A stretch of 64,000 nt of DNA from positions 496,001 through 560,000 of the forward strand of contig NZ_JAPFQM010000006.1 in the NCBI RefSeq assembly GCF_026241205.1, written 5' to 3'. This DNA is from Thermomicrobium sp. 4228-Ro. Lineage in GTDB: Bacteria; Chloroflexota; Chloroflexia; Thermomicrobiales; Thermomicrobiaceae. The stretch's first letter is position 1. Each line of letters opens with the position of its first letter. Under the pieces are notes generated by a model. It worked only from the letters and a program-made list of their open reading frames with translations, made no database searches and was not told the DNA's origin. Positions 5,054-29,564 of the stretch are shown here, piece after piece. The position numbers and the translations under genes were made by a program.

Positions 5054-5189
5054 GGGTACGTCCTCTCCGGAGGTGGGACGAGCCGACCGGTCGTCGTGCT
5101 GTCTGGCGCGCACTGTAGCAGAGGCGCAGGGTGGCTGGGAAGGGGTAATCGGTACGGGATGCTGCACGCGCTGCCGGGGCGCGGCACGC

Positions 5190-5690
5190 CGGTAGCCCCC
5201 TCATCTCCCGGCCTCCTCTCCTGCGCGGTGCGGGAGAGGGGTGCCCGAACGTCCCGGAGGGGTCGGGCGTGCGTGACCCGGCCGGCCCGAGAGGGCCGGG
5301 AACGGACGCACGTCCGGGCGCGGCACGCCGCGTCCCTACAGGGAAAAACGGGCGACGCACGCGTCGCCCCTACACGGGAAACGCGTGGGTGGATCGTGAC
5401 GGTCGCCCGCCGTTCGTCTACGGGCCCCAGACAACGACCGACCGCTGTAGGGGTCGCGCGTGCGTGACCCGTCCGGCCCGGAGGGCCGGGGAACGTGGCC
5501 CGGTTCCCGCGCCTGCGGCGCGCCACGCCGGTAGCCCCCCCTCACCCCCCGACCCCCTCTCCCGCACCGCGCGGGAGAGGGGGTGGCGAGCGGAGCGAGG
5601 TGGGGGTGGGGTGTGCGTAGACGGGCGACGCGTGCGTCGCCCCGACAAGGGAGACGTGGTGGGACGCCGGGCCTGAGTGCGGCGGGGGTG
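5190..5690. repeat. Palindromic repeat block between methyltransferase and helicase genes
   Basis: This gene-free gap contains two degenerate copies of the hairpin-rich element described at 47711, near 5255-5341 and 5442-5545. It also carries the palindrome GGGCGACG-CACG-CGTCGCCC near 5351. A long hairpin at 5553-5583 has a 13-bp stem (CCCCCTCTCCCGC against GCGGGAGAGGGGG). Open frames that cross the block are by-products of its composition. Confidence 0.75.
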
Positions 5691-5742
5691 AGGGGACAGG
5701 CCGGGCCAGCGGCGCTCCACCTCGACACGGGGAACGCCGCGC

Positions 5743-8640
5743 TCACCGCTTCGGCTGCAAGACGAGCAGGGCGACCAGGTCAGGTGGCCAGAGCGGCTCG
5801 ACCGCCAGCCCGCGCAGGCGGGCACCAGCCGCCTCGCGGACACGCCGGTGCGCCTCGCGCAGTGCGGTCGCGCGGGCTTCGAGTTGCCCAGCGAGCGGGC
5901 CGGCCGGCTCGGGCTGCCCGAGCAGCTCGGCGAGCGGCTCCAGCGCGAGCGCCGCCAGCTCGCGGCGTTCAGCGAGCGGGATCTCGGCCTCGGGACGCGC
6001 CGCATCGAGCAAGCGACGAGCCTCGCCGGGGTCGAGCCACTGCTCGGCCAGGAGGTCGCAGCCGGTGACGAGGACGTCCTCGAGCACGGCGTCCGGCCGC
6101 TCCGGCCGGCGGAGCAGGAAGCGGGCACGCAGCAGGGCGAGCGTGGTCACGCGCGGGACGAGACCGGTGCGGACGACGCCGGCTCGGGCTACGACCGACG
6201 CCGCGGTCGGCCGCTCGAAGGCGAGCTCGACGAGGTAGCGGGCGAGCGCGGCGGTGAACGGGTGGTTGCGGCCGACCCAGGGTGTACCGGAGGGGTGCGG
6301 GAAGGTGAAGGCGATGCGCCAGGGCTCCCGCACCTGCCGCGGAAGGGCGAGCTGCACCGCGTCCGGGAGCGTGGCGAGCCCGCTGAGCGTGAGCGTCCCG
6401 TCGTCGTCGAGGCGGACGTGGGCACCGAGCCGCTGGGCTGCAGCGGCCACGAAGTCGCGGACGGCGTGCTCGTCACCGAGCACGGCATCGCACGCTTCCA
6501 GTTCGCGCAGGACGGCTCGGGGGTCGAGCGCGTGCTGGGCGAAGCGGGTGCGGCGGACGCGCTCGCGCTCGGTGTCCTCGTCCCAGCGACGGAGCAGCGC
6601 GTCGCTGGGATCGGGGCCGAGCGGCAGCGCGAGCTGGGTCTGGCGCGGGCGCTCGAAGAGCCGGTGGACGAGGAGTTCGGCGAGCCAGCCCTCGTCCTCG
6701 GGGACGGGGACGTAAATGCCGAGATGCTTGCGGATCTGGTCGGCCTTGCGGATCAGGATGTCGACCACCTCGGCGTCGACCGGGTTATCGAGGCCGTAGA
6801 GGCGCACGGCGGTGACGTGCGGTCGGGACTGGCCGAAGCGGTCGACCCGGCCTTCGCGCTGCTCCAGCCGGTTCGGGTTCCAGGGGAGGTCGTAGTGGAG
6901 GACGGCATCGAAGGCGTCTTGGAGGTTGACGCCTTCGCTCAGGCAGTCGGTCGCGACGAGGACGCGCTGCGGTGCCTGCTGGAGCGCCTGGACACGCTCG
7001 CGGCGTTCCTCGTCGCCGATGCGGCCGGTCAGGCACTCGACGACGAGGTCGGGGAACTCCGCTTCGAGCGCCGCGCGCAGCTGCTCGGCGACGTACTCGG
7101 CGGTATCGACGAAGACGCACCAGACGACGGGTGCCGAGCCGCGCGCGAGCAGCTCGCGCACAGCGGCGAGGCATTCCTGGAGTTTGGTGTCCTGGGCTGG
7201 ATCCGCCGCGAGCGTCCGAGCGCGGCGGGCGAGGTCGCGGAGGCGCCGGCGCTCGCTGTCGCTCAGCGCGGTACGGCGGTCGCTCGCCAGCTCCAGCCGG
7301 TGGCTGGGCACCTCGTCGAGCGCTGGCTGCTCGGTCGGTTCGAGTCCGAAGAGTGCGGCCGGTTCGGCGCCGTTCGCGCTGGGGAGTTCGGCGAGCGGCG
7401 TGGCCTCCGCCTCGTCTTCGCTGGGGGGCTCGCGCCGCTCGAGCGCTTCGGCACCGGCCCGCGGGCTGGACATGACGCAGCGCAGGAGGGTGAGGGCGGC
7501 CCACCACTGGAAGCGGCGCTCGCGGTCGGGGAGCTGGCGGCTCCGCTCGACGAGCTGGCGGCAGAAGGTGAACACCTCGTCGAAGAGCTCTCGGTAGGCT
7601 GGCGAGAGACGGTAGGTGCGTTCGACAGCCTGGCGCTGTGGGTAGTGGTGTTCAGCTTCTGGCCACTGCGAACGGATATCGGCCCGAGTCCGCTGGACGA
7701 AATGGCGGGCCAGCTGCCGGCGCTGCTCCTCGTCGAGTCGGTCGAGCTCCCACTGCTCGAAGGTGGGGTCGAGGAGGCCGAGCAGGCGCTGGAAGGCGCG
7801 CTGGATGCCGGAGTGCGGTGTGGCAGTGAGCAGCAGGAGATGGCGACGAGGGTCGCGGGCGAGTGCGCGGACGAGCTCGTAGCGGAGGTGGCGCGGGTCG
7901 CGCTCGGCCGCGCTGGCTGGGACGACACCGTGGGCCTCGTCGACGATGACCAGGTCGGGTGCCTCGGCGAGGAAGGGCTCGCGGTTGCGGGGCAGCTTGA
8001 GGAAGTCGATCGAGGCGACGACGACCGGGTAGTGGCGGTACAGCGAACGGCCGGTGGGGAGCGTCCGCTCGAGCGCAGCGAGCGTGGCTGGCGCGACGAC
8101 GACCGGTTCGAGATTGAACTTGTCGCGCAGCTCGCTCGCCCACTGGTCGGTGAGCGGCGGCGGACAGAGGACGGTCAGACGGCGGATCTCGCCGTTGTCC
8201 CAGAGCTCGCGGGCGATGAGTCCCGCTTCGATCGTCTTGCCGACACCGACGTCGTCGGCGATGAGGAGGCGTACGGGGTCGAGTCGCAGCGCCATGAGGA
8301 GGGGGACGAGCTGGTAGGGGCGCGGACGGACGGAGATGCGTCCGAGCGAACGGAAGGGGGCAGCACCCTCGCGCAGGAGCAAGCGGGTAGCCAGCCCGAG
8401 CAGGCGCACTGCCTCGGCGTCGGCGAGCGCAGTGGGATCGGGGAGCGGGAAGCGAGCGGGTTCGAGCCGCTCGCTGGGGAGCGTGTAGGCGAGCAGGTCG
8501 GCCAGCTGGCGGTGGACAGGGAGTGCGTCCTCGGTCGTCCCGGTGAGCGGTCGGAGCAGGACGACCGCGGGATCGTCACCGGGCAGGACGACCCACTCGC
8601 GGTAGCGGTAGCGGACGACCGAACCGGGCTGGACGGACAT
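5743..8640 (-). CDS. SNF2-family helicase, DISARM DrmD-like
   Basis: 965 aa from the ATG at 8640; residues upstream of it look like non-coding DNA. The helicase core is complete: Walker A DDVGVGKTIEAG near residue 125, Walker B VIVDEAHG near 232, motif III LLLTATPHSG, motif V ATDCLSEGVNLQ and motif VI QREGRVDRFGQSR near 592. The N-terminal ~100 residues (GSVVRYRYREWVVLPG) match the small N-terminal domain of defence-associated SNF2 proteins, and a helical C-terminal third follows the core. In class 1 DISARM, DrmD is an SNF2 helicase encoded next to the adenine methyltransferase DrmMI. Here the methyltransferase lies downstream on the same strand, 689 bp away. RapA-like transcription ATPase is the main alternative. 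Confidence 0.82.
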   Translation of the reverse strand: MSVQPGSVVRYRYREWVVLPGDDPAVVLLRPLTGTTEDALPVHRQLADLLAYTLPSERLEPARFPLPDPTALADAEAVRLLGLATRLLLREGAAPFRSLGRISVRPRPYQLVPLLMALRLDPVRLLIADDVGVGKTIEAGLIARELWDNGEIRRLTVLCPPPLTDQWASELRDKFNLEPVVVAPATLAALERTLPTGRSLYRHYPVVVASIDFLKLPRNREPFLAEAPDLVIVDEAHGVVPASAAERDPRHLRYELVRALARDPRRHLLLLTATPHSGIQRAFQRLLGLLDPTFEQWELDRLDEEQRRQLARHFVQRTRADIRSQWPEAEHHYPQRQAVERTYRLSPAYRELFDEVFTFCRQLVERSRQLPDRERRFQWWAALTLLRCVMSSPRAGAEALERREPPSEDEAEATPLAELPSANGAEPAALFGLEPTEQPALDEVPSHRLELASDRRTALSDSERRRLRDLARRARTLAADPAQDTKLQECLAAVRELLARGSAPVVWCVFVDTAEYVAEQLRAALEAEFPDLVVECLTGRIGDEERRERVQALQQAPQRVLVATDCLSEGVNLQDAFDAVLHYDLPWNPNRLEQREGRVDRFGQSRPHVTAVRLYGLDNPVDAEVVDILIRKADQIRKHLGIYVPVPEDEGWLAELLVHRLFERPRQTQLALPLGPDPSDALLRRWDEDTERERVRRTRFAQHALDPRAVLRELEACDAVLGDEHAVRDFVAAAAQRLGAHVRLDDDGTLTLSGLATLPDAVQLALPRQVREPWRIAFTFPHPSGTPWVGRNHPFTAALARYLVELAFERPTAASVVARAGVVRTGLVPRVTTLALLRARFLLRRPERPDAVLEDVLVTGCDLLAEQWLDPGEARRLLDAARPEAEIPLAERRELAALALEPLAELLGQPEPAGPLAGQLEARATALREAHRRVREAAGARLRGLAVEPLWPPDLVALLVLQPKR

Positions 8641-8936
8641 GCGCGGCTCCTCCCCTGTGCGAGCGACCGCTCGGCAGGATGGCGGCAGGTGGGGCTGTGT
8701 GTCAAGGGGGCGGGCGGTGTGGATCGGAGCCGTCGCCAGCCCGCGAGTGCGCGGTACGGTGGAACAGCTGACGGTACGTGAGGTGGGTTCAGCGGATGCC
8801 ACAGGGTCTGCTTGCGTGTCGCACGCCTGTCCCGCTCGCTGGCCCGTCTGGGCTAGGAGTTCTCGACTCTGGTGTGCCTGCTGGACGCCTGCTATTCTCG
8901 TCACTGCGGAACGGATGCCAGGCGGGAGGGCGGCGT

Positions 8937-9758
8937 ATGGGTGAGCCAGCGAGACGGGTGTCGGAGCAGGCTGCACGCGCTCACGGGGTACCCAGCGCAG
9001 GCGAGCCGGAGCGGTCGGCCCGGGTGCAGCTGGGCTGGCCGGGCCGCAGGCTCGCGGTGCTGGCGGCTCTCCTGGCCTTCGTGCTCGCCGGCGTGCCGGC
9101 CTTGGCGGGGCCAGGTTCCTTCGGCGCGTTCGAGCGCGTCCGGCAGGTGGCACAGCCGCTCGTGACCGGGACGGTGCAACAGGCTGCCGCGCCCGGCGAG
9201 CAGATGCTCATGGAGGCAACCGTCGGGCCGAGCGCAACGGCCGAGCCCACAGCGACGGGAGAGCCGACGGTGGAGCCGACCCCGACGGTGCCTGCCGAAC
9301 CGACCGAGACCGTGGAACCCTCGCCGGTGACCGAGCCGACCGCAACGGTGGAGCCCACGGAAACCGTCGAGCCGACCGAGGCGGTCGAACCGACGGAAAC
9401 CGTCGAGCCGACGGAAACCGTCGAGCCGACGGAAACCGTCGAGCCGTCGCCGACGGCAGAACCCGAACCCACCGAGTCGCCGGTGCGCGAGGTCGCCCGG
9501 GAGAACCACGGCGCGGCCGTGTCGGAGGTCGCCAAGTCGCACGACGGTGAGGGGAACCACGGCGAGCAGGTGCGTACGGTCGCGCGGGACAACCACGGGC
9601 GAGCTGTCTCCGAAGCGGCGAAAGCGAAGCCTGCGGACGACGGAGTACCTGGCGTCTCCGAGACGGCGCGGGACAACCACGGGGCGCAGGTGCGGGAGGC
9701 GGCCGAGCAGCACGGCAAGGGTGCCGGGAAAAAGTCAGCGGGCGGGGCGGACGACTGA
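8937..9758 (+). CDS. Secreted or anchored low-complexity protein with PTETVE and NHG repeats
   Basis: 273 aa. The ATG at 8937 follows GGGAGGG at good spacing and is preferred to the open frame that starts further upstream. A hydrophobic segment (LAVLAALLAFVLAGVPAL) near residues 40-58 is a signal or anchor helix. A spacer then leads into a proline/threonine/glutamate tract with several PTETVE or PTEAVE repeats, resembling a cell-wall-spanning stalk. The tail carries three imperfect copies of a motif of the form V-x-x-x-A-R-x-N-H-G-x-x-V-x-x-x-A. No catalytic domain is seen. An envelope role is inferred. It is divergent from the SNF2 helicase gene and probably independent of it. Confidence 0.7.
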   Translation: MGEPARRVSEQAARAHGVPSAGEPERSARVQLGWPGRRLAVLAALLAFVLAGVPALAGPGSFGAFERVRQVAQPLVTGTVQQAAAPGEQMLMEATVGPSATAEPTATGEPTVEPTPTVPAEPTETVEPSPVTEPTATVEPTETVEPTEAVEPTETVEPTETVEPTETVEPSPTAEPEPTESPVREVARENHGAAVSEVAKSHDGEGNHGEQVRTVARDNHGRAVSEAAKAKPADDGVPGVSETARDNHGAQVREAAEQHGKGAGKKSAGGADD

Positions 9759-15530: not shown

Positions 15531-15723
15531 TCTTCACTGCTGCGTCAAGTGGGTCGGCAGGCGCTGGTCGTGACACGCCCGGCTGGCCGCTTACAGGCTC
15601 GCCGGTTCGGGTCTGCGTGTTACGGGGAGCGGGCGGGAGTGCAGGAGACGGTGCATTCGACCTGAGGATACGGTAGGCACAGGCGCGTCGCTGTGGTATG
15701 CTGTGCACGTCGAGGAGGGGTTT

Positions 15724-16839
15724 GTGGCCTTCACGGTCCAGGACTTCGAGGATCTGGTTCGGTTGCTGGAGCTGCATCCGGAGTGGCGGGCGCAGCTGCG
15801 ACGCCTGCTCTTGACCGAGGAACTCTTGACGGTGCCGGAGCGGCTGGCACGCGTGGAGCAGCTCCTGGTCGAGCAAGGAGAGCAGCTGCGGGAACTGCGG
15901 CGCATTGCCGAGGAGCACACGCGGCAGCTCCAGGAGCATACGCAGGAGCTGCGGGAACTGCGGCGCATTGCCGAGGAGCACACGCGGCAACTCCAGGAGC
16001 ATACGCAGGAGCTGCGGGAACTGCGGCGCATTGCCGAGGAGCACACGCGGCAACTCCAGGAGCATACGCAGGAGCTGCGGGAACTGCGGCGCATTGCCGA
16101 GGAGCACACGCGGCAACTCCAGGAGCATACGCAGGAGCTGCGGGAACTGCGGCGCATTGCCGAGGAGCACACGCGGCAACTCCAGGAGCATAGCCAACAG
16201 CTGCGCGAACTGCGGCGCACCGCCGAGGAGCACACGCGGCAACTCCAGGAGCACACGAAGGAATTGCAAGAACTCCGGCGGATCGTCGAGGAGCACACGC
16301 GGCAGCTGCTCGCGTTGACGCGCGAAGTCGGTGAGCTCCGCGAGGCAGTCCGCGTCCTGGAGGAGCGGCTCGACCGGCTGTCGCAACGGGTCGACGCGGC
16401 CCTCGGGCAGGTGTTCGAGTTGCGTGCCCAGCAACGGTTGAGCTCGTGGCTCGGTCGTTTGGTCCGCGGTATGCGCGTCAGGCCGCCGGGGGAATGGGAG
16501 CAAGAGTTCCGAGGACGCCTCGGGGACGAGGCGTTCGATCGGCTTCTGGATGCCGATCTCCTCGTCCGGGGGAGGCTCCGCACCGACGATGCACGCGAGG
16601 TCTGGCTGGTCGTCGAGGTTTCCTGGGTGATCGACCTGCGGGATGTCGACCGTGTCCTCGAGTGGGCCACGCTGCTCCGCGCCGCCGGGTTGACGGCGGT
16701 ACCGGTCGTCCTAGGGTCGCGGCTGACCGACGAGGCTCGCCTTCTGGCCCAGCGTGACGGCGTGCTGGTCGTCGAGGCCGACGAGCAGTCGGTCCGCAGC
16801 GAGGGGTGGGAGCGCGTGCAGGAGCGCTGGGTCGCCTGA
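15724..16839 (+). CDS. Coiled-coil repeat protein with nuclease-like C-terminal domain
   Basis: 371 aa from the GTG at 15724 behind GAGGAGGGG; an in-frame GTG at 15703 is the other possible start. The N-terminal FTVQDFEDLVRLLELHPEWR module is recurrent in thermophilic Chloroflexota and cyanobacteria. Next come seven 21-residue repeats (63 nt each) built on LRELRRIAEEHTRQLQEHTQE-like units, predicted to form a long coiled coil. The C-terminal ~110 residues (REVWLVVEVSWVIDLRDVDRV) resemble the PD-(D/E)XK-like tail of this family (E-V-S in place of the usual E-x-K). Biological role is unknown. Confidence 0.78.
   Translation: MAFTVQDFEDLVRLLELHPEWRAQLRRLLLTEELLTVPERLARVEQLLVEQGEQLRELRRIAEEHTRQLQEHTQELRELRRIAEEHTRQLQEHTQELRELRRIAEEHTRQLQEHTQELRELRRIAEEHTRQLQEHTQELRELRRIAEEHTRQLQEHSQQLRELRRTAEEHTRQLQEHTKELQELRRIVEEHTRQLLALTREVGELREAVRVLEERLDRLSQRVDAALGQVFELRAQQRLSSWLGRLVRGMRVRPPGEWEQEFRGRLGDEAFDRLLDADLLVRGRLRTDDAREVWLVVEVSWVIDLRDVDRVLEWATLLRAAGLTAVPVVLGSRLTDEARLLAQRDGVLVVEADEQSVRSEGWERVQERWVA
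15886..16326 (+). repeat. Seven in-frame 63-bp tandem repeats
   Basis: The first five units are nearly identical at the DNA level. The last two diverge at the protein level (RTAEEH, then QELRRIVEEH with LALTRE). The near-identity of the early units implies recent expansion by slippage or unequal exchange, so copy number may vary between strains. Confidence 0.92.
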
Positions 16840-19903: not shown

Positions 19904-20815
19904 ATGAGCTGGATCCGCCAGCAGCCGCGTCCCCAGCAGGAGCTGGCACAGGCGTTCCGCGATGCGGTCGCTGCGGGGCTGGTCGTCCTGCCGGGCGTCT
20001 ATGACGGACTCTCAGCGCTTTTGGCTCGTGCTGCGGGATTCCCGGCGCTCTATCTCTCCGGGGCCGCGTTCACGGCCAGTCGAGGCCTGCCCGACCTCGG
20101 TCTGGTGGGGCTGGCGGAAGTCGTCGAGCGGGCACGCGAGATCGTGCGAGCGACCGAGCTCCCGCTGATCGTCGACATCGATACCGGGTACGGCGGGGTG
20201 CTCAACGCGGCGCGGGCCGCGCGGGAGCTCGCCGAGGCGCGGGTGGCTGGGGTACAGATCGAGGATCAACAGCAGCCGAAGAAGTGTGGGCATCTCACGG
20301 CCAAGCTGCTCGCGCCGCCGGAGGAGCTGGAGCACAAGGTGCGGGCGATGAAGGAAGTCGCGCCGGATCTTTACGTTATCGCCCGCACCGATGCCTACGA
20401 GCAGGAAGGGGTGGAGGGGGTGGTGGGGCGGGCGCGACGGTATCTGGCAGCCGGTGCCGACGCCATCTTTCCCGAGGCGCTGCCGGACGAGGCAGCGTTC
20501 CGGGAGGTGGCAGCAGCGCTGCCTGGTGTCACCCTCCTCGCCAACCTGACCGAGTTCGGCCGGACGCCAGCCTTTACCGCAGCACAAGTGGCGGAGTGGG
20601 GGTACCGGATCGCGCTCTTTCCGGTCTCGGCGTTGCGAGTCGCCGCGAAGGCGATGGAGCAGCTCTACCGGACACTGGCTGTGGAGGGGACGACACGGCG
20701 GTTCGTCGATGCGATGCAGTCGCGGGCGGAGCTCTACGAACTCCTCGGCTACTTCGCCTACGAGGAGTTCGACGCCACGCTCGCGCGCTCGACGCTGCCG
20801 GAGTGGGAGGGGTGA
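19904..20815 (+). CDS. prpB: 2-methylisocitrate lyase (isocitrate lyase/PEP mutase superfamily)
   Basis: 303 aa. The PEP mutase/ICL fold is clear: GVYDGLSALLARAAGFPALYLSG, then the metal-binding LIVDIDTGYGG and the catalytic cysteine loop QQQPKKCGHL. Next come VIARTDAYEQEG and ANLTEFGRTP. PrpB carries the KKCGH loop, like isocitrate lyase, and the short length favours PrpB. It should split 2-methylisocitrate into pyruvate and succinate. It is the last gene of the operon; GC content falls sharply within the next 100 bp, marking the edge of the AT-richer island. Confidence 0.92.
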   Translation: MSWIRQQPRPQQELAQAFRDAVAAGLVVLPGVYDGLSALLARAAGFPALYLSGAAFTASRGLPDLGLVGLAEVVERAREIVRATELPLIVDIDTGYGGVLNAARAARELAEARVAGVQIEDQQQPKKCGHLTAKLLAPPEELEHKVRAMKEVAPDLYVIARTDAYEQEGVEGVVGRARRYLAAGADAIFPEALPDEAAFREVAAALPGVTLLANLTEFGRTPAFTAAQVAEWGYRIALFPVSALRVAAKAMEQLYRTLAVEGTTRRFVDAMQSRAELYELLGYFAYEEFDATLARSTLPEWEG

Positions 20816-21336
20816 GCGGGCAGGTATGTCGACCGACTCGTCCTCTGTCTCCGCGGTTGTTGTGAGGAACGAACGGCACAATCTTGCCAGATTTTGGGTC
20901 TGAGAATTGATCGGTTCGGTGTAGATGATTGGTCTGCTCAACAGATATCGCATGATAGGAATATAGTATTTTCATTATAGCTCACCGATGGTTTCTTGCG
21001 CCAGAATTGAGCACTGTTAGTGAAGCATATCATCGCGTCGCTTCGTGGAAATTACTCAAATCTATCTGTAACTCGAATTCTGGAGCGCCTCGTGTTTTTT
21101 TTGCGTGCCGACTGACAGTGCCGGGCTGGCCTCGCTCGGGAGTCCCGTTCCTTCGCATCGAGTGTCGATTGGCCGCTTGACGCGCTCTCGTGAGCGTCGC
21201 AGGTGTCACCAGAGCGGGTGTGCGGCTGTGTTGTCATGGTGAACCTGTGGAATACTATGGCCGATTATACCCAGGGGTAGGTCAAGTTTCAGCGCAGGCT
21301 CTCTGACAGGAGAGCGTGTGACAGCACCGGAGGCCC
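20816..21336. other. AT-rich left boundary of the island
   Basis: 521 bases, visibly lower in GC than any flanking gene, with runs such as TTTTTTTT near 21094. No gene is supported. An imperfect inverted pair, CAGAATTGAG near 21002 and CTCGAATTCTG near 21073, could be the remnant of a mobile-element end. GATTATAC near 21262 could be a -10 for the downstream operon. All of these are weak. Confidence 0.4.
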
Positions 21337-23766
21337 ATGATGCGGAGAGCGAGAGCATGGCTATCCTTCGGGCAAGTTGCCGCAGCGTTCGCCATGGGGA
21401 TCGGGGCTGTGCTTCTGGCGAAGGTCATTCGTGGGAAGCGCAAGCGCCAGAGGAAGGCAACACCTGTACGAGAGATGGTCCCCGGTTCCGAGGCGCATCA
21501 TGCGGTCCAAGGAGCTGAGAGATCCGCGGTGATCGCGGATTCCACGAAAGGTCTCAGTGACGGTGCTTTGTTGACCGTGTTGCCCGACCGAGACTCAGAC
21601 GCGTCTCCGGCGACCTCTGCTGCATGCCGAGGCGTGTGGCAAGAGGGAGATGCCGGAGCAGTTCCCGTCCAAGAGCAAAGTGATGAAAGTTTCTTGTATA
21701 CACAACATAGTGATGATAATTGTGAATACGTACTCGCAGAGCGCAGTGATAGTGAAGATCGTGGTGGAGACATAGTCATTGAGTCTGTGCCTACTCTTCC
21801 TGTCCCGCAGCAGCCAGTGGAAAATGTGCCCGAGAGCCAAGTGTCCGACGTGAACGACCTGTGGCAAGAGACTACTGAACAACAGGATTCCCACCGGGGG
21901 CGCCGACCGCCAGAGCGACGGGGTGGGCGACCGCGACGCGAGATTGTGGAGGAACCGAGGCAGCGACCACGGCGCCCATCTGCTCAACGTGTTGATGAGC
22001 GACCGTTCCTCGTTCGATGTCGCCGTGAGGAGCGGGGGTGGGTGGTTGGGTTCGAGCCACTCGACGATAATCTCATCTTCCTCCAGGACGGGCAGCCGCT
22101 CGAGCCTGAGCGTATTGTTGAGACCTTCCTTCCACTGCGTAGTGATTCCAAGGTGGTTGTGTCAGGTAATCAAGGGTGGGAGCTGTCTTACGCTCCCCTG
22201 AGCGACTCTTGCTACTTCTTTCGCCTCGAAAGTCCCACAGAAGGAAGTCTTGTCGAAGACGACGAGTTGGAAGCAGGACAAGCATATCTCATAATAGTGC
22301 AGGGAAGATTAGAGACTGCGTATGGCATGGAAGAAGAGACGATTGCGCTTCCTGGTTGGTCGGCCTACTATTTCGCGGGCGCTCATGCGACTGAGAAATT
22401 GAACATCGGCGCGCGAGTGATGCCCCTCCGCCGGCCATCCGAACGAGGGCTCTGGATTGTGGGTCATCCGGTGGATGGGGTGGACGAACGCTACCACGCC
22501 TTTTTCGATGTGTCCAAAATCGGCTGGGGCAAATTGCTCGCGGATGTTCGCGCGGTCGTCATACGACTTGAGCGGGGCTCTCGAGCATTCTCCTGTTCCT
22601 GGGAAGTATCCGGTGACGAAACTGAGATCCCGGACGATATCCGGGCTGAGCTGAGGGGTATCGGTGCGGGGCGCTTTGCTGTCCGATGCTACGATGGAAA
22701 CCAGCGGCTGGTGGTGAGCAGGGATTTCCGTCTTGCTGTTGGGCTCAAAAAGGTATCACGAACCTCGCTCAGCGATGGTTCCGTTCGGGTCGAGTTCGAC
22801 CTCGATCCCAATTTCCGTGTCGAAGCAGTCGACGGCAGTGTCGAATTATCCTGTGCCGAACCCTTCGCCTTTGTCATCCGTCCGCACCAGCGTCAAGCAC
22901 GCCCAGAATGGTGGGATCTCTTCGAGTGGAGGGTGCATGCGCCTTCTGGGAACTCTGTTCTTCTCGGCGTGGATCTGGGGCGAGCAGTCTGGGCACTCGG
23001 GGAGGGTGAGCAACCTCCAGTTGGAGATGAGTGGGGTGTCGAGGTGCTCCAGCTTCAGCGGTCGGACTTCGCTGCCACTTCGAAGAAAGTTGTCTGGATC
23101 TGGGTTCCGTGGTCCTTGAGGGGTAACAAGGTTGCGGTGTGCATAGCGCAATGTAACCGAAATAATCAAGGCATGGCTCTTCCTGAGCGAATGGTTGTAA
23201 AAGATGGGCATTTCTATCGTCTGCCGTTACGAGAGCTTGAGCATTTGATTCCCGAACAAACTGGTGAGTACGCAGTCATTCTCCAGCATGCCAAAGGCAC
23301 GCTGGAAATTGGTCGCTTCGATCTGCGCTACCAATGCCGGTTGTGTGGTTTTCGTGCCCGAGAGCAAAAAGCGATTCTCCATCATGCCGCTGTCCGACAC
23401 CTTTCAGAATGTTTCAACGAAATATCGGCAATCGAGATCTGGGAACGCGAGGGGAAGCTGCTTCCTGACCGAGTGTATGTCTGCGGATACTGTGGGAAGG
23501 GGTTTCCGGAATACGGGGCTGAGAATGGCAATACTGCTGTGAGTGCGCACCAGTTGTACGAGTGCCCACGGGCTCGCCAAGGAACGAATGTGGAGCCTGT
23601 TACGGTGAAAATTCGCGTTCTTGAGCGAGGACAGGACGACGAGGGAATGATCAAGGCGCTGGTTGGTGACAAAAGGCGTTGTCGGTATTGTGCACTCGAG
23701 ATTGATATCCAAGACGCCCCGAGTCATTTATGCAATCATGCTCCTCAACTCGTCGAGCTTTGCTGA
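21337..23766 (+). CDS. Unknown membrane-anchored protein with C-terminal zinc fingers; partner of giant helicase
   Basis: 809 aa; the ATG at 21337 follows GGAGGCCC. I do not recognise the family as a whole. Residues ~10-31 (FGQVAAAFAMGIGAVLLAKVI) form one hydrophobic helix followed by a basic cluster (RGKRKRQRK), suggesting a cytoplasmic protein tethered to the membrane. Residues ~40-220 are acidic and disordered, ending in an Arg/Pro tract. Residues ~225-650 are beta-rich with many aromatics, giving several predicted sandwich modules. Three Cys/His clusters follow, starting at residues 667 (CRLCGF...HH...RH), 716 (CGYCG...H...C) and 782 (CRYC...HLCNH). The stop is 19 bp before the helicase gene. 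Codon use is AT-richer than in neighbouring genes, which suggests transfer. Confidence 0.85.
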   Translation: MMRRARAWLSFGQVAAAFAMGIGAVLLAKVIRGKRKRQRKATPVREMVPGSEAHHAVQGAERSAVIADSTKGLSDGALLTVLPDRDSDASPATSAACRGVWQEGDAGAVPVQEQSDESFLYTQHSDDNCEYVLAERSDSEDRGGDIVIESVPTLPVPQQPVENVPESQVSDVNDLWQETTEQQDSHRGRRPPERRGGRPRREIVEEPRQRPRRPSAQRVDERPFLVRCRREERGWVVGFEPLDDNLIFLQDGQPLEPERIVETFLPLRSDSKVVVSGNQGWELSYAPLSDSCYFFRLESPTEGSLVEDDELEAGQAYLIIVQGRLETAYGMEEETIALPGWSAYYFAGAHATEKLNIGARVMPLRRPSERGLWIVGHPVDGVDERYHAFFDVSKIGWGKLLADVRAVVIRLERGSRAFSCSWEVSGDETEIPDDIRAELRGIGAGRFAVRCYDGNQRLVVSRDFRLAVGLKKVSRTSLSDGSVRVEFDLDPNFRVEAVDGSVELSCAEPFAFVIRPHQRQARPEWWDLFEWRVHAPSGNSVLLGVDLGRAVWALGEGEQPPVGDEWGVEVLQLQRSDFAATSKKVVWIWVPWSLRGNKVAVCIAQCNRNNQGMALPERMVVKDGHFYRLPLRELEHLIPEQTGEYAVILQHAKGTLEIGRFDLRYQCRLCGFRAREQKAILHHAAVRHLSECFNEISAIEIWEREGKLLPDRVYVCGYCGKGFPEYGAENGNTAVSAHQLYECPRARQGTNVEPVTVKIRVLERGQDDEGMIKALVGDKRRCRYCALEIDIQDAPSHLCNHAPQLVELC

Positions 23767-23785
23767 ACGGAGGGTGTGAGGAACT

Positions 23786-26700
23786 ATGCATTCGGGCGCT
23801 CTCTGGTATTTGGCCGATCGACTACGTGATCAGTATCAATCCTTTCTGGAGACAGCGTTTTCGTTCCGAGATCCGGTCCTTCGTCGCTCGTTTGCCGACG
23901 CGTTGCGGGGCCTCGAGCTGGTTCGTGAACCGTATGTCGAGCTGTCACCGCGTTATCACAGGAGCAATCCGCCACGTGCTCTCTTTAGAGAGTTATTGGG
24001 CCAAGATGTCTTGTCCGCTCTTTTGACAGCGTTGCATGGTGAGCGGCCGCTGTATTCCCATCAAGAGCAGGCACTCCGCCGCGTGTGGTCTGGCAACAAT
24101 GTGGTCGTGGCAACTGGTACAGGGAGTGGGAAGACTGAGGCGTTCCTCCTACCGATTCTTTTGTCGCTCTATGAGGAGTGGTGCCGAGGAACGCTCGGTC
24201 CGGGCGTGCGTGCTCTGATCCTCTATCCGATGAACGCACTGGCGTTCGATCAACGGGCGAGACTTGCAGAGATCGCGCGTGTCCTCAAAGAGGAGGAATC
24301 ACCGTTCCATTTCACCTTCGGTCAGTATACCGGTCATACACCGGAGGACGAACGTGATAAAGGGCGAGCCGCAATGGATTGGGAGGAGGAACGCACACCA
24401 CATACAATCCTAGAAAATGGCCGCGTTGTCCATGGGGAGCTCGTCTTTCGGAGGGAGATGCGCGCGACACCCCCGCATATCCTCATTACGAATTATTCAA
24501 TGCTCGAATATCTGCTCATACGTCCCACGGATAGTCCCCTCTTCGACGGAGAGGCGGCACGGCACTGGCGCTTCCTTGTTGTCGATGAAGTGCATACGTA
24601 CTCGGGCGTCCGTGGTCAGGAACTTGCGCTCCTATTACGACGGTTGAAGGTACGGCTTCGCCAGGCGGGGAATCGCAATCGCCTGTTCTGTATCGCTACC
24701 AGCGCTACGCTTTTTACTGGCCAAGAGGCGAAGCAGCAGGCAGCTCAGTTTGCGGAGCGGCTCTTTGGGGAGCCGTTCAGCCCGGACGATATCATCCTGG
24801 GGCAGCGGGCCGACTTGAGCGAGATCTTTCCCCGGGAGGACTTGGGGGAGCTGGGTGAGCATGTATCTCGCCTTACAAGCGCGCTGCAAGGTGGTCCGCG
24901 GCCGCTCGACACTGTTGCGCACGAGGTATTTCCGGAAGAAGTCGAAAGGCAGCGGGCCGAGGCACAGCTGCTCAGGCTCTTGAGTCGTTTGGGAGAGCGG
25001 CCGGGAAGAGACGGCCAGTCGCTCCTATCGACACTTCGTCTCCATATCTTCGTGCGGGGGTTGGAAGGAGCGTTTGTGCGCTACGTTCCAGGATTACAAG
25101 TGACGCTATCAGATCAAAGTGATGAATCGGCCAAATGCTTCGAGCTCGCGCTCTGCCGATTTTGCGGTCAGCACTATCTCGTTGGGCAAGTGAGTGGCGA
25201 TCGTTTTATTGCGGCGAATCGAGACTATTCAAGTGTCGGTTATCGCATCGACTATCTACTGCCGCTTGACAGTGATGAGGTGGATCGTAAGCCGAATATC
25301 TGGCTGTGTCCTGTTTGCGGGGCGCTCAGCAAGTCAGCTCGGTGCTCACGAGGTTGTGAAGGTGAGACAATACCTGTGTACTTTGAGGAAGAAGCTCATG
25401 ATCGGGATTCCGGTGAACTGAAGTACTGTCTGGTCTGTAATGTTGCTGCTTCTGATCCCGTCCGTGAGCTGGTCTACGGTGGTGAGTGGGTTCAGGCTGT
25501 CATCGCCACAACGATTCTCGATCTGCTCCCGAAGGGGCGACGAAAGATGCTCGCGTTCGCGGACGGTCGACAGGACGCCGCGTATTTTGCCGTGCGGCTG
25601 GACGAATGGGCGTCGCAACTCGCGCTCCGGCGTGGAATCGTTCAAGCTCTGAAGTCACTAACGAACGGAGAGGATCGAGACGGCCTTTCACTGCGTGAAC
25701 TTCACGAGGATCTCTTGGCGCTGTTGCCGCAGCTCTTCGACGATCCAGCCCATCGTACACACCGAGAGCGGAGGAAGGAGCTCTGGAAGCTCTTGTTGCA
25801 AGAGTTGCGGTCTTCTGAGGAAAACGGTTCCCTCGAATCAGCTGCGATTGCATTTTGGCGCCTTGGCTGGCCTTGGTTCAGGGGATTGCCTGAAAGTATA
25901 CTGGCTAAGCTCTTGCAACTCGAGTATCAGCGAGCTGTCGAGGTTGCGGAGTTTCTGCTGCTCTCGCTGATTCGTAGTGATTCTCTCGCGATTGAGCTTC
26001 TCGATCCCAATACCAGACTTGCAAATGATCTCCCGATGAATCGCCGTTATGTGCGTATCGGTTCTCCGGATGCAGACAAGACTGTCGTCAGTTGGGATGG
26101 CGTAGAGCGAGGATCCCCGAATCGGCGAGTGGATTACCTTGTCCGCTTTTTGCGGCGACAGAATCCATCGCTCTCGGTACAGGAGGCACGGGCAAAAGCG
26201 GGTGAAGTCTTGCAATCGTTCTGGGAATGGATGCGTCGTGAGGAAGAAGGGCTGCGTGAGCAAGATAAAATCCTCATTCGCGATCCTGGAAAGGGCTTTC
26301 AGCTCAATCCGCTCTGGCTCCGTCTTGCACGGCGTGATGAACAAAGCTTCTACCGATGCGATTGCTGTGGGCGTCCCAGTGCTCTTCTTGGAGCGGGGCC
26401 GTGTCCACGCTACGGTTGCCCCGGTACTCTGCAGCCGGCTTCTCCCTCAAAGGGGGAATCCCGGTTTTATCGCGAGTTATATGAATCGTTCTCTGGGGAG
26501 TCGCGTCGGTTTCTCGTCGAAGAGCACACCGCTCAGCTAACTACACAAAAGGCTCAAGAATATCAGCTCCGCTTTAGTCGTGGTGACCTTCATGTCCTGA
26601 GCTGCTCGACTACCTTTGAACTCGGCGTTGATCTGGGTGACATCGATGTTGTCTTTCTGCGCAACGTCCCTCCGGAACCGTTCAACTACACCCAGCGAGC

Positions 26701-28312
26701 TGGCCGCACTGGTCGACGGCAGCAGCTTGGTCTCGTAGTCACATTCTGTCGGCGGCGTCCCCACGATCTCTATCACTTTCGGTTCCCTGAGCGTCTCTTG
26801 CAGGGTGAAAGCCACACCATGGTTCCTCGTCACTGGAGTCGGCGGGTGATCCAACGGCATGTGAATGCCGTCGTCTTTTCCCGTTTCTTCCGAGCTTTCC
26901 CTGAACGCTTCCGTAACGTCGAGGCGATGGTCGGTGAGCGATGGGATCCTGGCGAGCTGTGCGGCCAGCTTGGAGCCTTCATCACGGCCCACTTTCGCGA
27001 TCTGCTTGATGAGATACAGGCCGTGCTGCGGGATTGCCTTGACCAGGACTCGCCTGAAGTGGTGAATGCGGAGCAACTCCTCGCTGGTGTCAACGAGTCA
27101 GGTGGTGTGCTCGATCGTGCGCTGGCAGAGATCTGTGAGGATTACCGTGCAGTGCGTGGGCTGGAGGAACAGGCGCGGAACGAGCGGCGGTACAAAGATG
27201 CAGATTGGGCTCATCGACGTGCTGAGACTATCGCGCGAGAAGATGTCTTGTCCTTCCTCTCCCGCAAGGCAGTGATACCGAAGTACGGATTTCCTGTCGA
27301 TGTCGTCGAGCTAACAGTTCCAGATAGTTCGAAGGGAGTCGAATTGACGCGTGATCTCCGCTTCGCGATCAGCGAGTACGCGCCCGGGCAATCGGTCATC
27401 GCTAACAAGTGGAAGTGGGAGTCGGGCGGAGTGAAGATACTCCCAGCTCGCGCATTACCACGACGTCGTTTCCGCTATTGTGAACAGCACCGGAGCTACA
27501 TTGAGCGCGACTACAGCGACGAGGCTGAACTCCCGCCGTTGCCATGTGGTTGCACTGGGCACAAGGGGCAGTACGTACAACCCATCTTTGGCTTTTTTGT
27601 TCCGCGGGGCAGCGCGGAGCAAGCACGTGCACGACCGAGGCAAACGTTGCCCTTAGCGTTCTTCGTCGACCTCGGAGAGTCCAAGCCGAGCCACTATGAC
27701 GAGTATGGTGCTCCCGCGGTGATTCGTGTTGCAGCAGTCGAGCGGAGACCCGTTGTTGTCCTGAGTCAAGGAGTTCGGGCGCAAGGATTCAAGATTTGTC
27801 TACAATGCGGAACTGCAAGGGATGCACGCTCGAAGCAGCACCTCCGTCGCGATGGTAAGGAGTGCGACGGACAATTCGAACGCGTGATGCTCGGACATTC
27901 GTTTCTCACCGACGTTGTACGTGTCGATTTCCTCATTCCTTCCTCCGAAAGTGATCTCGTTGCCTTGAACCATGGCTTGGTTGCGGTGCTTGTGGCTGGG
28001 CTCAGTAGGGCCTTGGAAGTGCCTGTGGCAGAACTCGGCGGAGTACCAGTTTTCGCTTCGGGTTATCCTTCGGTCGTCTTGTTCGACGACGTTCCGGCTG
28101 GTGGTGGGCTCGTTGCCCGCCTTAAAGAGAAGACAGTTCTTGAACAAGTCCTCCGCTATGCATACGAACAAGTTGATGGCCGGTGTGGCTGTGGTCCTCA
28201 TGGTAGTTGCTATTCCTGTCTTCGGACGTTTGCCAATCAAGCGGTTCACGCTTTGCTACGAAGAGGGCTGGTGTTTGTATATCTCGAACAGGTTCGTAAG
28301 GGGTTGGTCTAG
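23786..28312 (+). CDS. Giant DEAD/DEAH helicase with DUF1998-type C-terminus (DruE / DrmA-DrmB-like)
   Basis: 1508 aa; the ATG follows GAGG at 7 bp. Superfamily 2 motifs: SHQEQALRRV (Q-like), Walker A ATGTGSGKTEAF at 109-120, YPMNALAFDQ (Ia), ITNYSMLEYLL, the DEVH box LVVDEVHTYSGVRGQELALL and CIATSATLF (III). Later come FELGVDLGDIDVVFL (V) and YTQRAGRTGRRQQLG (VI). Several Cys clusters interrupt the core: CRFCG, CPVCG with CSRGC, CLVC, and CDCCG with CPRYGCPG. The last ~250 residues carry the DUF1998 pattern, with VVLFDDVPAGGG and the terminal CGCG...CYSCLRTFANQ cluster. Such helicase-DUF1998 proteins include DruE of Druantia and, as separate subunits, DrmA plus DrmB of DISARM. With its 809-aa partner it forms a two-gene cassette resembling type III Druantia in layout. 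Exact system is unresolved. Confidence 0.88.
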   Translation: MHSGALWYLADRLRDQYQSFLETAFSFRDPVLRRSFADALRGLELVREPYVELSPRYHRSNPPRALFRELLGQDVLSALLTALHGERPLYSHQEQALRRVWSGNNVVVATGTGSGKTEAFLLPILLSLYEEWCRGTLGPGVRALILYPMNALAFDQRARLAEIARVLKEEESPFHFTFGQYTGHTPEDERDKGRAAMDWEEERTPHTILENGRVVHGELVFRREMRATPPHILITNYSMLEYLLIRPTDSPLFDGEAARHWRFLVVDEVHTYSGVRGQELALLLRRLKVRLRQAGNRNRLFCIATSATLFTGQEAKQQAAQFAERLFGEPFSPDDIILGQRADLSEIFPREDLGELGEHVSRLTSALQGGPRPLDTVAHEVFPEEVERQRAEAQLLRLLSRLGERPGRDGQSLLSTLRLHIFVRGLEGAFVRYVPGLQVTLSDQSDESAKCFELALCRFCGQHYLVGQVSGDRFIAANRDYSSVGYRIDYLLPLDSDEVDRKPNIWLCPVCGALSKSARCSRGCEGETIPVYFEEEAHDRDSGELKYCLVCNVAASDPVRELVYGGEWVQAVIATTILDLLPKGRRKMLAFADGRQDAAYFAVRLDEWASQLALRRGIVQALKSLTNGEDRDGLSLRELHEDLLALLPQLFDDPAHRTHRERRKELWKLLLQELRSSEENGSLESAAIAFWRLGWPWFRGLPESILAKLLQLEYQRAVEVAEFLLLSLIRSDSLAIELLDPNTRLANDLPMNRRYVRIGSPDADKTVVSWDGVERGSPNRRVDYLVRFLRRQNPSLSVQEARAKAGEVLQSFWEWMRREEEGLREQDKILIRDPGKGFQLNPLWLRLARRDEQSFYRCDCCGRPSALLGAGPCPRYGCPGTLQPASPSKGESRFYRELYESFSGESRRFLVEEHTAQLTTQKAQEYQLRFSRGDLHVLSCSTTFELGVDLGDIDVVFLRNVPPEPFNYTQRAGRTGRRQQLGLVVTFCRRRPHDLYHFRFPERLLQGESHTMVPRHWSRRVIQRHVNAVVFSRFFRAFPERFRNVEAMVGERWDPGELCGQLGAFITAHFRDLLDEIQAVLRDCLDQDSPEVVNAEQLLAGVNESGGVLDRALAEICEDYRAVRGLEEQARNERRYKDADWAHRRAETIAREDVLSFLSRKAVIPKYGFPVDVVELTVPDSSKGVELTRDLRFAISEYAPGQSVIANKWKWESGGVKILPARALPRRRFRYCEQHRSYIERDYSDEAELPPLPCGCTGHKGQYVQPIFGFFVPRGSAEQARARPRQTLPLAFFVDLGESKPSHYDEYGAPAVIRVAAVERRPVVVLSQGVRAQGFKICLQCGTARDARSKQHLRRDGKECDGQFERVMLGHSFLTDVVRVDFLIPSSESDLVALNHGLVAVLVAGLSRALEVPVAELGGVPVFASGYPSVVLFDDVPAGGGLVARLKEKTVLEQVLRYAYEQVDGRCGCGPHGSCYSCLRTFANQAVHALLRRGLVFVYLEQVRKGLV

Positions 28313-28868
28313 CTAGCATGTGAGCGTCATGTTGGGATGGTTTGTTGCGGCTCGTTGTGATGACGTGCGTCGTTGGGCTCTGGGCTGGCACTACCGGTGT
28401 GCTATCGTGACCTGACAGTGATCGACTGAGGCGCGTCTGGTGACAAGGCACATACAGCCTCTCAACGCGTGCGCGATCATTCATGAGGAGATTGTGGCGG
28501 TATCCGTCTCGAGTGTGAGCGAATCATGTCGACACCGCTACGAGGCCGGTATTGAGTAGGAGTGCAATGGGCCCTGTTGGTGTCCCTGTTGTCGACAGTA
28601 TGGCCGGAAGCGAGCAGGATGAATGGCGTTCCGTTGTGGGGGACTGTATCGTGCAACGAGTGGGCCCGACAGTGGGATGCTAGCGTACGTGCTCGCGGCG
28701 ATGGCGAGTCCGCGCATGATCGTTGGCGAGCTGCAAAGCGAAAGACTCGGTCTACCGATCGTTGCGTTTCGGCAAGAAGCTGACTCCGCGGATTCAGATG
28801 GAGATGACGGCTGCAGTCCCGCTGGTTCGGTCGACAGACGACAAAAGCGGCCGTGAAAATGACGCTTG
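28313..28868. other. Right boundary of the AT-richer island, no gene supported
   Basis: 556 bases between the helicase stop and the PRC-barrel gene. GC content rises toward the right end. Short open frames here have no protein-like character or ribosome binding sites. I see no tRNA or clear attachment repeat. Confidence 0.4.
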
Positions 28869-29564
28869 TCAGTGCCGACCCCGCCGCGCCGTAGCGGCGT
28901 CGACCGAGAGGCGCACCTCGTCTTCGGTGACGCTGGCGATCCAGGCTGCCGGGATGTGCAGGTGCTCGCCACCGAAGAGCCCAGGGTCGACGGCCAGGCT
29001 GACGATCTCGCCGTCCTCGTTGAGGTGCACGTGCTCGACCTTGCCGAGCCGCGTGCCGTCGCTCGCGACGACCACCGTCCCACGGTCGATCCGGACCGCT
29101 TCCGGCGGGAGGTTGCTCGCTGTTTCGACCGGTTCGGCCACCGGCGGTGGTGAACTCGGCAAGGTGCCACCGGTCGGATCGAAGGGCGCGATCCGCGGTT
29201 CGGGGATCGTCGGGCCGCTGGTCGGTACACCCCAGACGAACGGCACGGTGCCGAGCCCGCCTCCGCTCGGCCAGACGTAGGGAACCGTTGCGGCTTCTTC
29301 GGCGGTGAGACGGACGAACTCGGCCTCGACGAACTGCGGGAGCTCGTCAGCCTGCTCGGCGTCGAGGGAGAGCCAGACCGTCCCGTCCGGTGCGACGGCT
29401 TCGATCAAGGCCCGATCGACGATCCGGTCCTCGGTCAGGAGGAATCCGCGGTGGACGATGATCGCTTGTACCTCCCGCGTTTCTGGATCGAGGACGAGCT
29501 GGTCGACCGTGCCGATCCGCTTCCCGTCACGGCTCATCACCGGGCGGCCGAGTTCGATATGCAT
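28869..29564 (-). CDS. Tandem PRC-barrel domain protein
   Basis: 231 aa from the ATG at 29564 behind GGGAGGAG. Two PRC-barrel domains flank a proline-rich linker. The first covers about residues 5-75 (VMSRDGKRIGTVDQLVLDP and IIVHRGFLLTEDRIV). The second covers about 150-220 (VVASDGTRLGKVEHVHLNEDG and IPAAWIASVTEDEVRL). PRC barrels mediate protein-protein or RNA contacts and are often stress-related in thermophiles. It diverges from the fur-type gene across 133 bp. No specific partner is indicated. Confidence 0.85.
   Translation of the reverse strand: MHIELGRPVMSRDGKRIGTVDQLVLDPETREVQAIIVHRGFLLTEDRIVDRALIEAVAPDGTVWLSLDAEQADELPQFVEAEFVRLTAEEAATVPYVWPSGGGLGTVPFVWGVPTSGPTIPEPRIAPFDPTGGTLPSSPPPVAEPVETASNLPPEAVRIDRGTVVVASDGTRLGKVEHVHLNEDGEIVSLAVDPGLFGGEHLHIPAAWIASVTEDEVRLSVDAATARRGRH

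Follow-up and report, generated by a model that had tools for sequence, protein, structure and literature searches.

A pair of adjacent genes in Thermomicrobium sp. 4228-Ro probably forms a two-gene anti-phage system on a Druantia III-like branch of the YprA-family helicases, with an 809-residue partner as putative sensor or adaptor and a 1508-residue DruE-family helicase as putative effector. We infer this activity from the family of the helicase, the recurrent pairing of the two genes, the unequal divergence of the two proteins and the defence genes that surround their relatives. The pair lies in the window, that is, the whole stretch of 64,000 nucleotides that was analysed (contig NZ_JAPFQM010000006.1, positions 496,001-560,000, forward strand).

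The gene pair and its insertion site

The two open reading frames are co-directional on the forward strand and 19 bp apart, the partner gene at 21337-23766 (809 aa) preceding the helicase gene at 23786-28312 (1508 aa). They occupy an 8.06 kb insert (20821-28878) that contains no further gene. The GC content of the insert is 56.3%, compared to 70.3% upstream and 68.4% downstream, and third-position GC is 0.56-0.57 in the pair against 0.78-0.91 in neighbour genes, as expected from the earlier note, which had described a lower-GC two-gene island with different codon use. The limits of the insert are defined by the congener G005, in which the sequence matching window position 20820 is joined via 18 bp to that matching 28879, forming a clean empty site. 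A search of the insert borders for mobile-element ends gave no integrase, no tRNA and no convincing repeat. A search for structured RNA over 20500-29500 found none either. Elsewhere in the window, upstream of prpC (15703-16839, forward strand), we observe a gene for a coiled-coil protein with near-identical tandem EEHTRQLQEHTQELRELRRIA repeats, the repeat of its congener homologue being different.

The same site is found in several states in related genomes. G002 carries the pair at this site, with prp genes on one side and a PRC-barrel gene on the other, and the pair adjoins the same PRC-barrel gene on a short contig of G003. G006 retains a remnant, the last 150 residues of the helicase, with 89% identity to the G002 protein, and G004 shows an unrelated gene at the site and a weak trace of the pair at most. 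The pair is located elsewhere, adjoining an ispE-like gene, in G008, an uncultured MAG of the Thermomicrobiaceae, the family of the window genome; its contig is the one also listed as L072. The empty site, the remnant and the pair at another place indicate a locus that is mobile or often lost. It is not a recent arrival, given the diverged copies in G002 and G003: between the window and G002, the five flanking genes are 76-90% identical, whereas identity is 60% for the helicase and 35% for the partner. The proposal in the earlier note that the genes are imported holds for the locus, although the import was not recent.

The partner diverges faster than the helicase. Identity between the window and G002 within the partner is 22% in the linker, 38% in the body and 45% in the zinc part. 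Two other arrangements of the partner gene are found. G003 (L008:1-4460) carries two diverged partners in tandem before a single helicase, as if sensors were being diversified, and a frame change in G008 (L009:7596-10221) splits the partner into two overlapping open reading frames, for which mutation, assembly error and recoding are candidate causes.

The helicase and its place in the DruE family

Pfam identifies DEAD, Helicase_C and MZB/DUF1998 domains in the helicase. More specifically, the forward strand encodes the Walker A motif ATGTGSGKT (residues 109-117) at 24110-24136, motif II DEVH (residues 267-270) at 24584-24595, the helicase C-terminal domain PF00271 at 26495-26719 and the MZB/DUF1998 zinc domain PF09369 at 27986-28222. 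The protein ends 29 residues further on, and past MZB there is no C-terminal nuclease, including the PLD domains seen in Druantia type III. DruE models dominate its PADLOC matches, the best at 8.6e-161, and the closest solved chains are a 2108-aa helicase, a 1970-aa helicase and the helicase YprA. We assign the protein, on its sequence, to the DruE family of YprA-family SF2 helicases, in agreement with the DruE-like SF2 and DUF1998 helicase proposed earlier. The other half of that proposal, an equivalent of DrmA plus DrmB, is not retained: DISARM requires separate DrmA and DrmB genes together with DrmC and a methylase, whereas we observe one fused protein and no DISARM gene adjacent. Druantia types I and II were also rejected, as they require DruA-D or DruM/F/G, while the sole partner gene has no PADLOC match and the insert no other gene.

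In a maximum-likelihood tree built from 22 proteins, the helicases of the window, G002, G003, G008, G236 and G310 form one group (support 100/100). Its sister is a Chloroflexota group whose partners bear sigma domains, and the placement is on the Druantia side, with ARMADA outside. The PADLOC score and the trees with ARMADA as outgroup are the basis for this placement on the Druantia side. A scan of public genomes with the helicase returned 558 relatives, the best 80 of which were kept. The resulting tree of 97 proteins places the window helicase in a clade of 29 (support 1.00), whose sister comprises 57 others, mostly from Actinobacteria, Firmicutes and Chloroflexota. Neither group includes canonical Druantia I, II or III. 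The trees thus separate this DruE clade from canonical Druantia types I, II and III and from ARMADA. Its taxa include Chloroflexota, Bacteroidota, Acidobacteriota, Planctomycetota, Thermodesulfobacteriota, Gammaproteobacteria and a Methanophagales archaeon. On viral contigs, the helicase has only remote relatives, at 25-29%.

The partner protein and its exchanged terminal modules

Searches of the 809-aa partner against PADLOC, Pfam, NCBIfam, plasmids, phages and PDB sequences matched no family or homologue, so this protein, which the earlier note did not recognise as any named partner, lies outside the named families. Its AlphaFold2 model (20-sequence alignment, mean pLDDT 70) and the conservation among homologues agree with the architecture first read from the sequence, namely one helix, a disordered region, beta-rich modules and three Cys/His clusters, all encoded on the forward strand. 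The N-terminal helix (residues 3-38, 21343-21450) is a predicted membrane anchor that runs into the basic segment RGKRKRQRK. The linker that follows (residues 39-220, 21451-21996; 38-220 in the model, pLDDT below 50) is disordered and contains a conserved AT-hook-like motif, RRPPERRGGRPRR (residues 189-201, 21901-21939); such a motif, of the type P-x-x-[RI]-GGR-[PR]-R, occurs in the disordered region of 16 of the 18 complete homologues. The body (residues 221-660, 21997-23316) is modelled confidently, over residues 224-660, as a beta-sandwich of tandem Ig/FnIII-like type; the tandem Ig and FnIII proteins matched by Foldseek are generic multi-Ig proteins with low TM-scores, which support the fold class only. 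Three small C2H2-like zinc-finger folds are predicted in the C-terminal part, with the conserved clusters C667, C670, H683 and H688 (23335-23400), C716, C719, H738 and C743 (23482-23565), and C782, C785, H797 and H801 (23680-23739).

As a membrane helix, the N-terminal segment is weak in the window partner (hydropathy 1.92) and amphipathic in several relatives: among the complete homologues, it is hydrophobic in 11 of 18 and strongly amphipathic in 6 of 18. The earlier note had proposed that a membrane-tethered partner would be a new architecture. The anchor is indeed predicted for the window protein, and for 17 of the 18 complete homologues if amphipathic helices are counted, but the partner is not wholly new, as its Ig-like body is homologous to that of the DruH-like partners of the sister clade.

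In a profile-search survey of the helicase neighbourhoods, 27 clade members have upstream sequence, and in 26 of them the gene directly upstream encodes a partner homologue; 24 of these were seeds or first-round matches, and 2 were added by the second round (about 1e-82). The remaining member, a fragment at a contig edge, carries an L13e module. Later iterative rounds drift into the sister clade and were left out of these counts; how the two groups of partners are related was examined on its own, by profile-profile comparison of disjoint sets. The partner body aligns with the sister-clade partners (hhalign 97.4%, E 1.4e-11) and also, at 94% (E 1.2e-7), with the actinobacterial DruH-like set, in both cases collinearly over about 350-370 columns, which indicates homology. 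The sister-clade partners carry an additional N-terminal region of about 350 residues that is absent from the window clade, and their match to canonical DruH is weak, about 2-6%. The window partner does not match canonical DruH (hhalign 0.1-0.2%) nor any PADLOC model, which rules out that it is itself a member of the DruH3/YjiT family. The DruH model gave no hit in 251 genomes of the phylum, the same search being silent in control genomes as well, and a scan of close-relative contigs with the partner alone found nothing, the family being found with a profile or with the helicase as bait. In E. coli S1-NGR-02-A (L053:12094-20373), an IS3 insertion is followed by the remainder of DruH and DruE read as a single 2759-aa open reading frame.

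Sequence comparison further shows that the terminal module of the partner is swapped across relatives while the Ig-like core is kept, a feature that is new here. Zinc clusters are found in the partners of the window, G002, G003, G008, L074, L078, L079, L080, L082 and L133. A Ribosomal_S9 domain ends the partners of L073 (Bacteroidota, 2.7e-14), L075 (archaeon, 1.9e-10) and L081 (Anaerolineales, 3.2e-12); these modules are 39-43% identical to one another and 30-34% identical to the rpsI product of the window genome, whose C-terminal tail they lack. L13e is detected by Pfam in L090, L149 and L126, and a local profile adds L084, L091, L100, L102 and L122, for a total of eight. Complete sigma-70 regions occur at the N-terminus in L102 and L122 and at the C-terminus in partners of the Chloroflexota sister group (two lineages), and regions 1.2, 2, 3 and 4 of the sigma module all exceed the Pfam cut-offs. 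Finally, a DruE partner from Oscillospiraceae (L143:6745-9939) ends in an RNA-polymerase alpha-CTD (4.4e-10, above the Pfam cut-off). An unbiased Pfam scan of 66 partner C-termini detects L13e in 5, S9 in 3 and alpha-CTD in 1, with weak zinc-finger matches. Assembly errors are an unlikely source of these fusions, because each module sits within the partner frame that immediately precedes the helicase, and because S9 and L13e appear repeatedly in different phyla. Within the openly available main texts, we found no publication that joins Druantia with S9, L13e, sigma-70 or alpha-CTD modules.

Two observations concern the sigma-bearing partners. In L102:5911-9984 and L122:5758-9984, sigma-70 regions 2-3-4 are followed by 1.2, as in a circularly permuted sigma factor, with an L13e-like tail. 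The name MzaA, suggested by PADLOC for the Chloroflexia partners, was rejected, since the matched part is the sigma-70 domain and the same model (PDLC02203) matches a control gene from an arbitrary region; MzaA calls made on sigma-70 domains may be false.

Neighbourhood, alternatives and possible mode of action

The genes flanking the clade members are rich in defence functions. At a PADLOC threshold of 1e-40 or better, 116 flanking open reading frames match 44 models, including AbiE, HmaABC and BrxH/DrmD-type, compared to 2 models (one a sigma-70-like MzaA) for 116 control open reading frames from arbitrary regions of solely Chloroflexota genomes; the ratio is rough, because some matches are split DruE pieces and several models can match one protein. 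The window genome also contains an ARMADA-like cluster, some 12 kb upstream of the pair, with a PglX/DrmMI-like methyltransferase (992-5167, reverse strand) and a RapA/BrxHII-like helicase (5743-9153, reverse strand), whose predicted start is too long, homology beginning near residue 175. Both observations favour the defence association suggested in the earlier note over a housekeeping context. The cluster has its own 1773-aa YprA helicase, of the ARMADA clade, about 6 kb past the left end of the window. Beyond that end, the cluster spans about 485.0-490.4 kb (G000:C6; L011:5038-10359), with a metallo-beta-lactamase-type open reading frame between, such that two YprA-family systems are found within about 45 kb.

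Druantia type III is among the closest known systems. E. coli DruH is reported to be a sensor with three Ig-like domains that evolves faster than DruE, and DruE to load on 3'-tailed DNA (PMC13192584). The window locus likewise has a partner followed by an adjacent DruE-family helicase, with an Ig-like partner outpacing the helicase in evolution. Nevertheless, the window partner has no detectable sequence homology to canonical DruH, its membrane helix and zinc fingers are undescribed for DruH, and the helicase lacks the PLD nuclease. The actinobacterial "type III Druantia" and the sister clade resemble the window pair in their nuclease-less DruE and in the collinear, homologous partner body. 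They differ in the N-terminal region of about 350 residues, in place of which the window clade has the helix and the disordered AT-hook-like linker, and in the C-terminus, which in the window clade consists of exchanged modules. In M. smegmatis, MSMEG_1253/1254 (1132 and 1667 aa, without nuclease domains) block phages, and the full effect needs both (PMC13316683); from gene size and taxon, this pair presumably belongs to the sister clade. The Druantia Type III-like branch described in the main text of Bell et al. 2025 (PMC12458937) comprises DruE relatives mostly without nuclease, and that main text is silent on partner proteins or modules of the branch. By tree, the window helicase falls on a type III-like branch, putatively the published one. 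According to the same main text, ARMADA combines a YprA-family helicase with BrxHII, PglX and a Vsr nuclease, and in TALON/TOTE the TATA-binding protein, a core transcription factor, occurs close to a YprA-like helicase. The window pair shares the helicase lineage with ARMADA but lacks BrxHII, PglX and Vsr, whereas TALON/TOTE consist of separate genes and other components, and no sigma, alpha-CTD or ribosomal protein fused to a partner is described there.

The swappable modules could be read as baits: sigma-70, alpha-CTD and S9 would mimic components of the host's transcription or translation apparatus, and phage hijackers of these components would bind the bait and thereby trigger the helicase. 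Both sigma-70 and alpha-CTD are targets of known T4 proteins, the sigma regions and the alpha-CTD exceed their Pfam cut-offs, and the S9 module is diverged from rpsI and lacks the normal C-terminal tail. We consider this reading unlikely, as L13e is not known from bacterial ribosomes, yet it is the most common module detected by Pfam, so that the modules cannot all be mimics of host machinery. In addition, the C2H2 zinc fingers of the window partner mimic no obvious host target, and most of the bait-like modules also bind nucleic acid, which a plain tether explains equally well.

We hold it still less likely that the pair serves DNA repair or the exclusion of plasmid or foreign DNA, like MrfAB (YprAB), instead of phage defence. 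The YprA family includes repair helicases, according to the main text of PMC12458937, and the window helicase has the DEAD, Helicase_C and MZB domains in common with them; nevertheless, the PADLOC score and the tree put it with Druantia, and a housekeeping role in repair is at odds with the patchy presence, the fast partner divergence, the insertion or deletion at one site and the defence neighbours. A single split system comprising the pair and the ARMADA-like cluster is highly improbable, despite the PglX-like methylase and RapA-like helicase in the window (992-9153) and the YprA helicase beyond it, since the cluster already has that helicase of its own, the two loci differ in strand and are separated by unrelated genes, and the pair has no ARMADA genes beside it in G008 or the other relatives examined. 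We give hardly any credit to a residual or decaying island without function: the G006 remnant and the frame-split partner of G008 do show decay in some strains, but in the window neither gene is disrupted, every motif is present, and the two proteins are conserved in different phyla.

For a two-gene anti-phage system, we propose the following mode of action. The N-terminal helix would anchor the partner in the inner membrane and leave the remainder in the cytoplasm. Its Ig-like domains, the core common to DruH-like partners, may respond to a signal of infection, most likely a protein of the phage, while the linker with its AT-hook-like motif and the zinc fingers at the C-terminus would keep it on nucleic acid. 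The partner could then bring or license the helicase on phage DNA, where the helicase, by analogy with DruE, may load on 3'-tailed or replicating DNA and block circularization or replication. Since the helicase has no nuclease, it would act by unwinding or occupying the DNA, not by cutting it. The replacement of the terminal module by S9, L13e, sigma-70 or alpha-CTD in related systems suggests that this module is a changeable hook, which would set the nucleic acid or machine that is watched. More speculatively, and against our own expectation, the clade may represent a guard/decoy immune family, in which DruE-like helicases are armed by membrane-held sensors and the exchanged sigma-70, alpha-CTD, S9, L13e and zinc-finger modules serve as bait or hooks, comparable to the integrated decoys on plant immune receptors.

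At least 29 helicases, from many phyla and an archaeon, belong to a clade whose partner goes unrecognised by the PADLOC version used. The kept Ig-like core, combined with an exchanged anchor and module, bears on what Druantia partners sense and on why they are so varied. A defence sensor that is fused to sigma-70, alpha-CTD or a ribosomal protein suggests that some Druantia-like systems watch transcription or translation.
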